A DNA stretch of 51,352 bases, taken from assembly GCA_005879805.1 (NCBI GenBank), contig VBKL01000057.1:1-51352 (forward strand), written 5' to 3'. A program made the translations under genes and the position numbers. This document shows, in pieces, positions 16,300 to 22,052 of the stretch (positions within the stretch are counted from its first letter, which is position 1; the number at the start of each line of letters is the position of its first letter). Below the pieces are notes generated by a model. It did no database searches. It was not told the origin of the DNA and was given only the letters and a program-made list of their open reading frames with translations. The stretch is from Deltaproteobacteria bacterium. Its GTDB lineage: Bacteria > Myxococcota > Myxococcia > Myxococcales > 40CM-4-68-19.

Positions 16300-16364
16300 A
16301 AAAAAGCGGCAGCGCAGCCGGTGCAGGTGGGGGGAGGACCCGCACTCGAGCCTTGCGCTGCCGC
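16300..16364 (-). terminator. Intrinsic terminator of the Crp/Fnr-like gene
   Basis: On the minus strand a perfect 10-bp stem GCGGCAGCGC/GCGCTGCCGC (16364-16355 with 16315-16306) encloses a 39-base loop and is followed at once by six T (A-run at 16300-16305). The loop itself can fold further (GTGC...GCAC). It lies 25 bp after the stop of the Crp/Fnr-like gene. Confidence 0.8.
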
Positions 16365-16388
16365 AGGGAAAGCCCTCGGGCTTATCCC

Positions 16389-17029: not shown

Positions 17030-17088
17030 TTGAACGGAACGTAGATATTACAGCCGCAAAACGTCGAATCGTTGAACGTTTCGTTCAA
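17030..17088. promoter_or_regulatory. Candidate upstream activator sites for the Crp/Fnr-like promoter
   Basis: The 7-mer TTGAACG occurs at 17030-17036 and again at 17072-17078, 42 bp apart (four helical turns). The second copy is part of a perfect dyad, TTGAACG-TTT-CGTTCAA (17072-17088), which overlaps the stop codon of the sigma-54 regulator gene. Relative to the predicted start at 16931 these lie at about -100 and -150, the usual place for enhancer sites of NtrC-type activators. Binding by the adjacent regulator is inferred. Confidence 0.5.
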
Positions 17089-18232
17089 TCCTCGCCGGCG
17101 GGGGCAAGCCTGTATTTCCGCAGCTTTCGCTCCAGCGTGGGCCGGGAGATGCCGAGGATCTGACACGCGCGACCCTTGTGACCCTTGGTCATGGTGAAGA
17201 CGCGTTCGATATGCGCCTTTTCGAGCTCGTCGAGGGTTGGCACGCGGTCAGAAACGACGGGGGCCGCGGCCGCCTTGGCCTTGGCCGGCTCGCCGTTCTG
17301 CACGAGGTGCTCCTCGAGCAGCAGGTCGCCCTGGGAAAGGACAGCCGCGCGCGTCAGGAGATTTTCCAGCTCGCGCACGTTCCCCGGCCACTCCCGGGCC
17401 ATCAGCTTCTCCAAGGTCTCGCGAGGAACGCGCCGCAGGTTCTTGTGCAGGCGCTGGTTGATCTTCACGAGCAGATGCTCGACGAGCAGCGGGATGTCGT
17501 CCCTCCGCTCCCGCAGCGGGGGGAGGGACAGGGTCACCACCTTGAGCCGCTGGTAGAGGTCCTCGCGGAAGCGCCCCGCGGAGACTTCCGAGGCGAGGTC
17601 GCGGTTCGTGGCGGCGAGGATGCGCGCCCGCACCGGTATCCGCTTCACACCGCCCACCCGCTCGAACTCGCGCTCCTGCAGGACCCGGAGGAGCTTCGCC
17701 TGCAGGTTCTGGGAAAGCTCGCCGATCTCATCGAGGAAGAGGCTGCCGTCGTCCGCCAGCTCGAACTTGCCCACCTTCGTGGCCACGGCACCGGTGAAGG
17801 AGCCCTTCTCGTGCCCGAACAGCTCGCTCTCGAGGAGCGTGTCGACGATGGCCGAGCAGTTGATGGCGATGAAGGGCCGCGACGCCGAGCTGTAGCTGTG
17901 GATGACCCGGGCGATGAGCTCCTTGCCGGTTCCGCTCTCGCCCTGGATGAGCACGGTGGCATGGCTCGCCGCGACGCGTCCCAGGTCCTTGAAGAGCTGC
18001 TGCATGGCCGGGGAAGTCCCGACCAGATCGTCCATGCGGAACGGCCGCTGCGACTCGACGGAGACGACGTCCGAGCCCCGGGAGATGCGGCGGACTTCCA
18101 GCGCGCGGTCGAGGGCGACGTCGAAAGCCTCGATGTCGAGGCAACGGCTACCTCATAGCCGCGCTCCTCGAGATGCATCGAGAGAAGCTCGCGGATCGAG
18201 CGGTCGTCGTCGACGATGAGGATGCGTTCCAC
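17085..18232 (-). pseudogene. MrpB-like sigma-54 response regulator, receiver domain internally deleted and frameshifted
   Basis: Translation from GTG 18232 gives a good receiver start (MERILIVDDDRSIRELLSMH, then [12 protein letters not shown]). The frame is then lost at about 18140. In another frame the protein resumes with [20 protein letters not shown], which looks like the last receiver helix and linker. It continues into an intact AAA+ domain (GESGTGKE Walker [11 protein letters not shown] as the GAFTGA loop, [12 protein letters not shown] Walker B) and a Fis-type helix-turn-helix ([20 protein letters not shown]). About 75 receiver residues, including the phosphoacceptor Asp, are absent. 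The junction is a perfect dyad GCCTCGA-TG-TCGAGGC (18127-18142). A 316-residue receiver-less activator could still be made from ATG 18035. The gene follows a histidine kinase on the same strand. Confidence 0.8.
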
Positions 18233-18288: not shown

Positions 18289-19320
18289 TCATGCAGCAAA
18301 CGTCACCGAGATGACGTTCCCCTCGCCTGTATCGAGGAATTTCGCCTCGCCGCGGTGCTCCCGGGCGATGCGCGCGACGACCGCCAGACCGAGACCGGTG
18401 CCGCGCGCGCGGTGCGGCGTGAAGGGGACGAACGCCTTGGTGCGCTGCTCGCGCGGGAGCGGGCGGCCCGGGTCCTTCACCGTCAGCTCCCAGCCTCCGT
18501 CGCGCGTTTCTACCGCGACGTCGACGAAGCCGCCTCCGACCTCCTCCGCGGCGACCGCCGCCTGCCGGCAGAGAATCTTCACGGCGGTGCGCACGCGCAC
18601 CGGATCGATGGCGACGGGCGGCATCCTCTCGGGGACGGTGCAGCGGAAGACCACGCCGCGCGTCTGCCACTCGGCCTCGACGCCTTCCACCGCATCGCGC
18701 ACGGGCGTCGACGGATCGCCCGGGATCAAGGTCACGGACGGAGGCCGCGCGAACTCGAGCACCTCGTTGAGGAGCAACTCGATGTTGAGCACTTCGCGCA
18801 GGGCAATGCTGGTCCTGCGCAGGTCGTTGGTCGCGAGCGTCCCGTGCCGCTCGAGCGTCTGCAGCGCAATCTTCACCGCCGAGAGCGGATTGCGGACTTC
18901 GTGCGCGACGAGGGAGGCGAAACGGGCCAGGTCGTCCGCGCGCAGCGCCGCGTCCACCACGCCGCGGCTCGCCTCTAGATCGCGGACTACCGCCACCACC
19001 CCGCCAGGCGCGCTCGAGAGGAGAATCTGGGCGGGAAACGGCTGGCCGCCTCGAAGCAGCGTTCGGTGCTCCTCGATGGGACCTCTCGCGGCCGCCTGGG
19101 CGAGATCGCGCGCGGCGCGCTCGCCGCCGGTGAACAGCGTTCCCGCGGGCGACCCTTCGATCGAATCCGCGCTGGCGTTGAACACGCGATCGACCGCCCC
19201 GCGCGCGGCGGCGATGGTGGGAGACTGGCCGGAATCCCACGCGAGCGCGCAGGTGTCGTGCGCGGCGCCGAGGAAGCGGCCGAGATCCTCGCAGAGCTGG
19301 ACGAGAGCCTTCGACGCCAC
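18289..19320 (-). CDS. Soluble sensor histidine kinase (MrpA-like position), atypical ATP-binding boxes
   Basis: 343 residues with no membrane helix. A PAS-like N-terminal region leads to the dimerisation box ARFASLVAHEVRNPLSAVKI with His140. The C-terminal ATPase fold ends with a clear G2 box, GTGLGLAVVARIAREHRG. The N-box, usually NLLxNA, reads KILCRQAA (249-255) with Gln in place of the Mg-binding Asn, and the G1 box is DPGRP rather than DxGxG. Both changes suggest weak kinase activity, perhaps a bias to phosphatase. GTG 19320 is the start. The gene lies 56 bp upstream of the sigma-54 regulator, as mrpA does before mrpB in Myxococcus; equivalence is inferred from order and domain type. Confidence 0.85.
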   Translation of the reverse strand: MASKALVQLCEDLGRFLGAAHDTCALAWDSGQSPTIAAARGAVDRVFNASADSIEGSPAGTLFTGGERAARDLAQAAARGPIEEHRTLLRGGQPFPAQILLSSAPGGVVAVVRDLEASRGVVDAALRADDLARFASLVAHEVRNPLSAVKIALQTLERHGTLATNDLRRTSIALREVLNIELLLNEVLEFARPPSVTLIPGDPSTPVRDAVEGVEAEWQTRGVVFRCTVPERMPPVAIDPVRVRTAVKILCRQAAVAAEEVGGGFVDVAVETRDGGWELTVKDPGRPLPREQRTKAFVPFTPHRARGTGLGLAVVARIAREHRGEAKFLDTGEGNVISVTFAA

Positions 19321-19684: not shown

Positions 19685-19757
19685 CAGTAAATGTCGCACT
19701 GCGGCATACCGTTCTAGCGGGCGCGCAGCGTCCGACCGCGTGTTAAATCAGGGGGCC

Positions 19758-20582
19758 ATGGCTCGCGACAGGGACCGGACTGTCCGCTCCGACGAGCACA
19801 ACTCCCGCGGGATCGAGCTCGCCGATCGCGGTTGGCTCGACGAGGCCATCAAGGAGTTCAAGAAGGCCATCGAGCTCGATCCCGAGTCGGCGCACGCTCA
19901 CGACAACCTCGCCACCGTCTACTCGGAGAAGAAGCTCTACCGGGAGGCCCTCAAGGAGTACCTGACGGCCCTCGAGCTCGAGCCGGAGAGCGCCACCGCC
20001 CACTACAACCTGGCCTGCTTCCTCGCCACCCATGGGTCGGACATGGCCGTGGACGAGTACAAGGAGGCCATCGAGCTCGACCCGGACTACCCCGACGCCC
20101 ACCTCAATCTCGGCATGACGTACGCCGACCAGGACCGCCGCGAGGAGGCGAAGGAGGAGTTCCGGGCCGCCATCGAGCTCGACTCCGAGGACCCTGTCGC
20201 CCGGCACGAGCTCGCAGCGCTGCTCATGGACGAAGCCGACTACCGCGGCGCCATCACCCAGCTGAACGAGGCGGTGCGGCTAGAGCCCGACAATTACGAG
20301 GCCCATCTCGACCTGGGCATCTGCTTCGCCCAGAAGGGCTTCTACCAGGAGGCGGAGCGCTGCTACGCGAAGGCCCGCGAGCTGAGCCCGGATGACGTGC
20401 TCCTCAACTACAACGTTGCCGCCCTGTACTCGCTCTGGGACCGTCATCCGGAAGCGCTCGACGCGCTCAAGAAGGCCCTGGAGAAGGACCCGCTGAAGGT
20501 ACGCAGCTGGATCGCCTCCGATCCGATGTTCGACGCTCTCAAGGGAAACGCACAGTTCGAGCAGATGCTTGCGGTTCAGTAA
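19758..20582 (+). CDS. Tetratricopeptide (TPR) repeat protein
   Basis: 274 residues made of about seven TPR units. Each has the spacing of A/G at position 8, Y/F at 11 and A at 20, and many end with the same ELDPES/ELDPDY/ELDSED motif (for example EAIKEFKKAIELDPESAHAH). The repeats are close copies of each other even in DNA, with IELDP-type words recurring. TPR arrays bind peptide segments of partner proteins; no enzyme domain is present and the partner is unknown. There is no signal peptide, so it is probably cytoplasmic. ATG 19758 has AGGGGG eight bases upstream. A candidate sigma-54 sRNA unit follows on the same strand. Confidence 0.88.
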   Translation: MARDRDRTVRSDEHNSRGIELADRGWLDEAIKEFKKAIELDPESAHAHDNLATVYSEKKLYREALKEYLTALELEPESATAHYNLACFLATHGSDMAVDEYKEAIELDPDYPDAHLNLGMTYADQDRREEAKEEFRAAIELDSEDPVARHELAALLMDEADYRGAITQLNEAVRLEPDNYEAHLDLGICFAQKGFYQEAERCYAKARELSPDDVLLNYNVAALYSLWDRHPEALDALKKALEKDPLKVRSWIASDPMFDALKGNAQFEQMLAVQ

Positions 20583-20595
20583 GACAAGGTAGGTG

Positions 20596-20632
20596 CTTTC
20601 AACGGTGCAAGGCTTTGTTGCAGAAATGAAAG
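20596..20632 (+). promoter_or_regulatory. 37-bp dyad, candidate activator (enhancer) site for the sRNA promoter
   Basis: CTTTCA (20596-20601), TGCAA (20606-20610), TTGCA (20618-20622) and TGAAAG (20627-20632) are arranged as one symmetric dyad centred on 20614. The centre lies about 109 bp before the predicted sRNA start, the usual distance for NtrC-type activators of sigma-54 promoters. It follows the TPR stop by 13 bp, but has no T-run, so I judge an operator more likely than a terminator. Confidence 0.6.
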
Positions 20633-20695
20633 GGATCCGGACCGGGACGGTGTAGGCACCCGCTCCAAACCCCCGATCAGAGGCATTTCGAGCTC

Positions 20696-20711
20696 TGGCA
20701 CGCCGTCTGCA
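20696..20711 (+). promoter_or_regulatory. Sigma-54 (-24/-12) promoter of the candidate sRNA
   Basis: TGGCACG-CCGT-CTGCA differs from the sigma-54 consensus TGGCACG-N4-TTGCA at one base only, with GG and GC correctly spaced. It lies in a 306-bp gap without any reasonable ORF. The predicted start of transcription is near 20722. Confidence 0.8.
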
Positions 20712-20721
20712 CAGTAGGGGG

Positions 20722-20832
20722 ACGAGGCGCAAGACGCCTGTCGGAGAGTGGTACCCCCCCCCCGCCGCCCCGACTGCTAAGGCGCTTCACTTCCTCAAGC
20801 CCCCGGGCAATGACGCCCGGGGGCTTTTTTTT
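20722..20832 (+). ncRNA. Candidate sigma-54-dependent small RNA (Pxr-like architecture)
   Basis: About 110 nt lie between a near-perfect -24/-12 promoter and a strong intrinsic terminator, with no plausible start codon plus ribosome site. The 5' part folds into a hairpin, GAC-g-AGGCG-caaga-CGCCT-GTC (20721-20742). A middle part has GTCGG (20740-20744) able to pair with CCGAC (20769-20773) around a ten-C run (20754-20763). The 3' end is the terminator hairpin. Myxococcus xanthus Pxr, a small RNA that blocks development when nutrients are present, has the same plan: a sigma-54 promoter and about three stem-loops with a terminator. I cannot compare sequences here, so homology is unproven. Confidence 0.65.
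20798..20832 (+). terminator. Strong intrinsic terminator of the candidate sRNA
   Basis: A perfect 11-bp stem AGCCCCCGGGC/GCCCGGGGGCT (20798-20808 with 20815-20825) with a 6-base loop AATGAC, followed by eight T (20825-20832). It is the best intrinsic terminator I see in the window. It separates the sRNA from the PLP-enzyme gene that starts 56 bp later. Confidence 0.92.
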
Positions 20833-20888: not shown

Positions 20889-22052
20889 ATGGCGCAACGA
20901 CCGCAGGGACTCGCGACCATTGCCGTGCACGCTGGCGTCCCCGAAGGCGGGAACTCGCCGCTCACCACGCCCATCGTGCAGTCGACCACCTACCGTTTCG
21001 AGAGCGCCGCGCAGGTACAGGCATACCAGCGGGGCGAGGGCGGCCTCTTCATGTACTCGCGCGACGAGAACCCCACCGTCCGCGCGGCGGAGGAGGCGGT
21101 CGCGCGCATCGAGGGAGCGGAGGCGGCGGTCCTCTTCGCGAGCGGCATGGGGGCGATGACGACGGCGCTTCTCGGGCTGGTGTCCGCGGGCGACGAGGTC
21201 ATCGCCGCGAGCGCGCTCTACGGCGGCACCTACAAGCTCTTGCGCGACGTGCTGAGCCGCTTCGCGGTGCGGCTGCGGCCGGTCGCGCCCGAAGATCTGG
21301 CGAAGGAGGTCGTGGAGCGCCCGGCGAAGCTGTGTGTCTTCGAATCGCCGACGAACCCCACCTTGCGCATCGTCGACGTCGCCCGCGTGGCCGAGGCGTG
21401 CCGCAAGGCGCGCGCCGTCAGCGTCATCGACTCGACCTTCGGACCGCCCGTCTTGCAACACCCGCTGGAGTCCGGCGTGGACGTCGTGATGCACAGCGCG
21501 ACCAAGTACTTGAATGGCCACTCCGATCACCTCCTCGGCGTCCTGCTCGGGGCGCGCGAGCGGATCGAGCCGCTGCGGCTCTTGTCGCGCAGGCTGGGCG
21601 CGGCGGTCGATCCGCAGGCGGCATACGACCTGCTCCGCAGCCTCAAGACGCTTCCCATCCGCATGGAACGCCATTGCTCGAACGCGCTCCGGATCGCGAC
21701 CTGGCTCGAGGCGCAGCCCGCCGTGCGGCGCGTCTACTATCCGGGTCTCGAGAGCCATCCCGACTACACGCTGGCGCGAAAGCAGATGTCGGCCTTCGGC
21801 GGGATGGTGACCTTCTCGCTCGGCGACAAGGAACGCGCTTTCCGCTTCTGGGACCGGCAAAAGCTCATCGCCCGCGCCGCCAGCCTCGGAGGAACGGAGT
21901 CGATCTCCTCGCTTCCCATCCTCTTCAGCCACACCGGCTACTCGCGCGAGGAGCTCGCCCGGGCCGGTGTCGACGAGGGAATGGTCCGGCTCTCCGTCGG
22001 GCTGGAAGATCCCGAAGACCTCATCGCCGACCTCTCGCAGGCGCTCGGCTAG
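20889..22052 (+). CDS. Cys/Met-metabolism PLP-dependent enzyme (cystathionine gamma-synthase/lyase or methionine gamma-lyase type)
   Basis: 387 residues of the trans-sulfuration family, fold type I. The landmarks are AVHAGVPEGGNSPLTTPIVQ at the N-terminus, the YSRDENPTVRAAEEAVARIE block, FASGMGAMTTALLGLVSAGD (cofactor phosphate site), CVFESPTNPTLRIVD and VVMHSATKYLNGHSD, whose lysine forms the Schiff base with PLP. The closing SVGLEDPEDLIADLSQAL is also typical. The exact reaction (gamma-replacement or gamma-/beta-elimination on homoserine esters, cystathionine or methionine) cannot be fixed from sequence alone. Its stop is 3 bp before a small downstream gene, so they form an operon. Confidence 0.9.
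   Translation: MAQRPQGLATIAVHAGVPEGGNSPLTTPIVQSTTYRFESAAQVQAYQRGEGGLFMYSRDENPTVRAAEEAVARIEGAEAAVLFASGMGAMTTALLGLVSAGDEVIAASALYGGTYKLLRDVLSRFAVRLRPVAPEDLAKEVVERPAKLCVFESPTNPTLRIVDVARVAEACRKARAVSVIDSTFGPPVLQHPLESGVDVVMHSATKYLNGHSDHLLGVLLGARERIEPLRLLSRRLGAAVDPQAAYDLLRSLKTLPIRMERHCSNALRIATWLEAQPAVRRVYYPGLESHPDYTLARKQMSAFGGMVTFSLGDKERAFRFWDRQKLIARAASLGGTESISSLPILFSHTGYSREELARAGVDEGMVRLSVGLEDPEDLIADLSQALG

Follow-up and report, generated by a model that had tools for sequence, protein, structure and literature searches.

A predicted sigma-54-dependent small RNA gene related to Pxr and unlinked to pxrR in the uncultured family 40CM-4-68-19

Introduction

Pxr is a small RNA that stops the building of fruiting bodies by Myxococcus while food lasts. 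Its known traits include the processing of Pxr-L to Pxr-S and the block of fruiting-body development. A 2014 survey of the origin of pxr is said to have found copies at the pxrR-NADH dehydrogenase locus and homologues only in the Cystobacterineae. Trans-acting sRNAs transcribed from a sigma-54 promoter under an NtrC-type regulator include Qrr of Vibrio (LuxO) and CrcZ of Pseudomonas (CbrB); these share the regulatory plan with the sRNA studied here, and no relation in sequence or structure is claimed.

At the level of its evolution, Pxr has been portrayed as a recently evolved gatekeeper of multicellular development, and every pxr copy examined in that study is bordered by pxrR on one side and by an NADH dehydrogenase gene on the other (PMC5568312). 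In M. xanthus, Pxr no longer functions when its SL1 loop is lost or carries a single C-to-A substitution (PMC5684412). Here we describe a Pxr-related sRNA gene predicted in a stretch of 51,352 bases (hereafter the window) from a genome of family 40CM-4-68-19, and compare it with Pxr and with its homologues in other families.

Results

A complete predicted transcription unit between the TPR and PLP-enzyme genes

An initial annotation of the window had read the gap between a TPR-repeat protein gene and a PLP-enzyme gene as a sigma-54 sRNA unit comprising an enhancer, a -24/-12 promoter, an RNA and a terminator. The four parts are present in this gap and form a complete predicted transcription unit, in the expected order (Table 1). 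The enhancer is indeed palindromic; however, it is not the single 37-bp dyad of the annotation but consists of two 14-bp palindromes in tandem, the centres of which are 21 bp apart. These sites can be read as one dyad because their outer halves, and their inner halves, are also mutually complementary. Their common motif, TTKCANNNNTGMAA (TTKCA-N4-TGMAA), is found in the window in these two copies only (0.04 expected), and two activator motifs occurred in none of 100 shuffles of the window. The promoter TGGCACGCCGTCTGCA was found as annotated and is the sole copy of TGGCAC-N6-TGCW in the window (0.08 expected). In the whole 5.0-Mb genome, the combination of the activator motif with the promoter at 45-75 bp occurs once, at the sRNA locus.

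The RNA start was derived by taking the GC at 20709-20710 as positions -13/-12, which places it close to 20722 instead of 20715 as first proposed. The predicted transcript folds with an energy of -56.4 kcal/mol (z = -5.2), and none of 200 shuffles was equally stable. Two hairpins had been anticipated: the RNA does fold, but into one long interrupted hairpin, the tip of which is GGUACCCCCCCCCCGCC, followed by the terminator. The latter (GCCCCCGGGC...GCCCGGGGGC) has the strong stem and the eight T noticed previously; the stem has 12 pairs.

Table 1. Positions in the window of the predicted sRNA unit and of its flanking genes.
Feature	Position	Strand	Basis or remark
TPR-repeat protein gene	19740..20582	+	Upstream context; Pfam; start codon not settled
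Activator (enhancer) site 1, TTTCAACGGTGCAA, putative	20597..20610	+	TTKCA-N4-TGMAA
Activator (enhancer) site 2, TTGCAGAAATGAAA, putative	20618..20631	+	TTKCA-N4-TGMAA
Sigma-54 promoter TGGCACGCCGTCTGCA, TGGCACG-CCGT-CTGCA (-24/-12)	20696..20711	+	Sequence match
Predicted sRNA, ~111 nt, Pxr-related	20722..20832	+	Start placed by promoter geometry, end by T run; fold; matches to covariance models R1 and R2
Long imperfect hairpin, conserved foot GAGGCGC/GCGCUUC	20724..20788	+	Fold, covariation
Apical C-rich loop GGTACCCCCCCCCCGCC, putative seed	20750..20766	+	Forms the conserved core in alignments A5 and A6; counterpart of the Pxr SL1 loop GGTTCCCCCCCACC
Intrinsic terminator	20797..20832	+	12-pair stem 20797-20826, T8 at 20825-20832
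Cys/Met-metabolism PLP-enzyme gene	20889..22052	+	Downstream context; Pfam PF01053

As the unit lies between the TPR and PLP genes, on the same strand, and the PLP enzyme is one of Cys/Met metabolism, the gap might contain no independent sRNA but the terminator of the TPR gene together with an attenuator or riboswitch in the 5' leader of the PLP-enzyme gene. We regard this as very improbable: the unit has a predicted sigma-54 promoter and activator sites of its own, its homologues in at least six other families sit elsewhere in the genome, several of them adjoining pxrR, and no Rfam riboswitch scored up to its cut-off.

The unit is conserved in family 40CM-4-68-19

Family 40CM-4-68-19 is uncultured, and its named members are MAGs from soil and other environments. 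The same gap was recovered in relatives by DNA search, and a covariance model (R1) was built from four of them. With this model, the sRNA was found 3' of the TPR orthologue in 11 of the 12 genomes of the family; in the twelfth (G005), the TPR-PLP gap is only ~44 bp. The unit is therefore kept in relatives with conserved flanks, the comparison that had been suggested at the outset, and the claim stands. One DNA match (L005, in G007) lies outside the TPR-PLP gap and is due to chance. Among the R1 matches, L053, in family f3, is genuine, and L052, which has no promoter or loop of the sRNA type, was discarded.

In the family alignment, 94% of the cells are paired, both partners have changed in 13 of the 27 pairs, and neither shuffling nor sliding the register gave pairing as good; this alignment was fitted to the covariance model, and the fit favours structure. 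Across the family, the terminator stem shows compensatory changes at 7 of 11 pairs. The promoter form TGGCAY-N5-CTGC is retained in the family members checked, and promoter and loop are retained even in members with altered stems.

The window sRNA is related to Pxr through intermediate families

Two oligonucleotides published in PMC5568312, AGGCTGAAGGTGGTTCCCCCC and the overlapping CCCCCCACCCCTTCAGCACTTCCGGT, give the first stem-loop of Pxr. A 20-base Pxr pattern with 3 mismatches, which finds many chance matches in GC-rich DNA, was used only to reach the Myxococcaceae loci; their identity as Pxr rests on the presence of the oligonucleotide sequences (PMC5568312) and on pxrR/nuoN synteny. These loci are flanked by a PxrR orthologue and nuoN, and carry paired TTKCA-N4-TGMAA sites upstream, as does the window sRNA. 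Homologues of the sRNA were found across nine families of the order. Tandem activator sites 18-22 bp apart are present upstream of many of them, and of Pxr, and the motif with its paired spacing is common to the f1, f3, f4, f6 and f7 loci.

A second covariance model, R2, was constructed from sequences of f3, f6 and f9 only, none coming from 40CM-4-68-19 or Myxococcaceae, and its alignment contains 8 pairs with double changes. R2 matched the window at 20721-20792 with 29.3 bits and the ten other family loci with 17 to 52 bits (its E-values are rough, the calibration being short). It also matched the Pxr loci of Myxococcaceae. In a control on 345 kb of TPR neighbourhoods from 80 genomes, the matches above 16 bits were the 40CM-4-68-19 loci only; under strict whole-genome filters, R2 missed several genomes of the family.

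Intermediate forms (GAAGTGCAAAGCAGCCTGTTGAAGTAGGTCCCCCCCCGCCACTTCAGCTGCGCTTTGCACTTC) are located directly behind pxrR in Anaeromyxobacteraceae and f9. Their single hairpin has both the foot seen in the window sRNA (GAAGYGC) and the head seen in Pxr (TGAAG..GG.CCCCCCC.CC.CTTCAG). In these pxrR-linked loci (L087-L095, L097, L098), the promoter is as at the window sRNA, activator sites are present in most, and the hairpin GAAGYGC...GGUCCCCCCCCGCCA...GCRCUUC is like that of the window sRNA; however, the hairpin ends in T and acts as terminator itself, and the gene stands behind pxrR.

Like Pxr of M. xanthus and relatives (PMC5684412, PMC5568312), the window sRNA has a sigma-54 promoter and paired upstream activator sites. 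The two RNAs are of similar length (108 nt for Pxr, about 111 nt predicted here), both have a GAAG foot, a strong 3' terminator hairpin and a C-rich apical loop in the first hairpin (GGUUCCCCCCCACC in Pxr, GGUACCCCCCCCCCGCC in the window sRNA), and a PxrR/PxrK-like pair is encoded in the source genome, as with Pxr. In contrast, the window sRNA has two hairpins only, without the short SL2; its first hairpin is longer, and its terminator is unrelated in sequence to Pxr SL3 and holds no conserved GC-rich SL3 segment. Its gene lies between the TPR and PLP genes, whereas pxr lies between pxrR (nla19) and the NADH dehydrogenase gene. The Cystobacter paralogues Cb.1 and Cb.3 also have two long stem-loops and no SL2, but are tandem copies at the pxrR locus; they do not block M. 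xanthus development (PMC5568312).

The initial suggestion, that this is a sigma-54 sRNA and perhaps a distant Pxr, is supported by covariation, by an independent covariance model and by the shared sites, promoter and loop. It holds for a relative but not for Pxr in the strict sense, as SL2, the SL3 sequence of Pxr and the pxrR-nuo location are missing; without SL2 and SL3, the window sRNA is a Pxr-type variant rather than Pxr proper. Taken together, the sequence comparisons support the conclusion that it is a distant relative of Pxr, linked through intermediate families.

This homology rests in part on a low-complexity C run, and the resemblance might have arisen in an independently evolved sigma-54 sRNA. 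Sigma-54 promoters of such type are common, C-rich loop hairpins arise repeatedly because of their pairing with ribosome-binding sites, SL2/SL3 and location differ from Pxr, and a second C-loop hairpin in the window scores nearly as well, with neither conservation nor promoter. The alphaproteobacterial families ar14 and suhB also gave weak Rfam scores, far below their cut-offs. Convergence would nevertheless have to account at once for the pairing of TTKCA-N4-TGMAA sites, for the distance from promoter to hairpin, and for both foot (GAAGYGC) and loop, and the intermediates of f6 and f9 adjoin pxrR; we therefore judge an independent origin improbable.

The Rfam search, made on 14-28 kb of the window, returned no family above threshold: ar14 (24.3 bits, gathering threshold 58.8) and suhB (mmgR; 23.3 bits, gathering threshold 41) were rejected. 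The second C-loop hairpin (16302-16367, minus strand) is a terminator-like structure downstream of a CRP-family gene (GCGGCAGCGC...GCGCUGCCGCUUUUUU, loop GGGUCCUCCCCCCACCUG). It scored 29.2 bits with R2, yet it was rejected as a Pxr-type RNA since it was not found in relatives and lacks a sigma-54 promoter.

Other loci with Pxr-like features

A second locus type was observed in f6 (L193, L194, L196, L198), away from pxrR. Its loop is GGGGACCCCCCCGCACCUCUC, and it carries activator sites together with a promoter-like TGGC...TTGC; these loci possibly represent a paralogous sRNA family. In two genomes of 2.1-2.7 Mb of the Myxococcaceae family (L200 in G135, L201 in G030), a Pxr-like RNA is kept, but its promoter is altered to TGGCGCATAAT(A/G)TGC and activator sites could not be recognised. 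Two candidates lie outside the order. L187 (G188:C85:6767-6842), from an AT-rich genome, combines a Pxr-type hairpin with a pair of TTTCATATATGAAA sites and the sigma-54 promoter TGGCATTATATTTGC, and is a candidate for a very distant relative of the Pxr-type sRNA. L188 (G147:C309:7363-7431) is a weak match, with a C-run, GGTTCCCCCCCCGCC, in a hairpin loop, a second C-run, GGTTTCCCCCCCACC, just downstream, and a sigma-54-like TGGCATGAAATCTGC upstream.

pxrR is retained at a separate locus

PxrR orthologues are distinct, with 60-76% identity compared to ~53% or less for most paralogues. The orthologue of the source genome (62% identity) is encoded on another contig (C95:1588-2865, G000). In family 40CM-4-68-19, pxrR has mostly a histidine-kinase gene upstream, and nuoN within ~0.7 to 1.1 kb where contigs reach; no similar promoter, activator sites or loop was found beside pxrR in this family, including on C95. 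As pxrR is on another contig without the sRNA, unlike published pxr, the RNA gene was apparently relocated: from these gene neighbourhoods, it appears to have left the ancestral pxrR-nuo locus in 40CM-4-68-19 and to stand now behind the TPR gene.

In the PxrR tree, 40CM-4-68-19 forms one clade (100/100), placed among families with a pxrR-linked sRNA (f6, f7, f9, f4) or an unlinked one (f2, f3). On account of this placement, linkage to pxrR is the likelier ancestral state, the root of the tree being unsure. At three Anaeromyxobacteraceae loci (L120 in G047, L128 in G016, L130 in G049), pxrR and nuoN are close and no sRNA was found between them; these are apparent losses of the sRNA at the pxrR locus. 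G016 has an sRNA candidate elsewhere (L194).

The recognition helix of PxrR, TTLWRKMKRL, is the same in the source genome, in most of 40CM-4-68-19 and in the Myxococcaceae orthologues. As this helix is the same and the activator sites match those of pxrR-linked genes, regulation by PxrR in trans is the natural inference. Among 60 genomes, 48 have both sRNA and PxrR, 2 PxrR only, 4 the sRNA only and 6 neither (Fisher p = 1e-4, n = 60, shared ancestry not corrected for). G003, which is 100% complete, has the sRNA, and no PxrR orthologue was found in it; another activator may therefore act there.

For the window, such an activator could be the two-component system encoded beside the TPR gene (histidine kinase, 18289-19320; sigma-54 AAA+ regulator, 17085-18035), in place of PxrR. 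This system adjoins the locus in G001, G003 and G009, and G003 is the sRNA-bearing genome where PxrR was not detected. However, the activator sites are of the same type as at the pxrR-linked loci of other families, the recognition helix of the neighbour regulator differs from that of PxrR, the source-genome copy seems to be without most of its receiver domain, and the 10 kb surrounding the G004 locus, which has the sRNA, yielded no such regulator. We thus consider the neighbouring system unlikely to be the activator. In the window, this NtrC-type regulator (17085-18232, minus strand) appears broken, with the receiver-domain start and the AAA+ domain in different frames, and the gap between the histidine kinase and AAA+ genes is ~250 bp compared to 420-520 bp in G001, G003 and G009, which reflects either a deletion or an assembly error.

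Discussion

We consider it probable that the gap between the TPR and PLP-enzyme genes holds a sigma-54-dependent, Pxr-type sRNA gene that stands alone, is activated in trans by PxrR, acts through a C-loop seed and was relocated from the pxrR-nuo locus. In the mechanism that we propose, phosphorylated PxrR, an NtrC-type response regulator, would bind the two TTKCA-N4-TGMAA sites and activate sigma-54 polymerase in trans, leading to transcription from ~20722 of an sRNA that would end at 20825-20832. The CCCCCC loop would serve as the seed and pair with G-rich ribosome-binding sites of trans-encoded mRNAs, which a C6-C10 seed would suit, and the target mRNAs would be repressed while nutrients signal via PxrK/PxrR. 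As a change in the SL1 loop, or its loss, abolishes Pxr function, the functional part of the window sRNA is probably its corresponding loop. No claim of a developmental role can be made for the sRNA of 40CM-4-68-19.

Several features go beyond what has been published on pxr: the gene is not linked to pxrR, its RNA has two hairpins and another terminator, homologues span nine families, and candidates occur outside the order. None of the open papers searched brings Anaeromyxobacter, pxr and sRNA together. An old family of sigma-54, C-loop sRNAs, spanning the Myxococcota and older than the control of fruiting bodies, could include Pxr as one of its derived members. The ancestor would have been a single self-terminating hairpin beside pxrR, which moved in 40CM-4-68-19, f2, f3 and f8, and to which SL2/SL3 and the developmental use were added in others; we hold the chances of this scenario to be evenly poised.

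With an unlinked relative in an uncultured family, and with the intermediates in Anaeromyxobacter and other families, the origin of Pxr becomes open to testing, and two TTKCA-N4-TGMAA sites ~20 bp apart provide a compact rule for finding the PxrR regulon. Anaeromyxobacter is not, to our knowledge, a fruiting genus. These observations suggest that the regulator and the C-rich seed came first, the control of development being a later addition.
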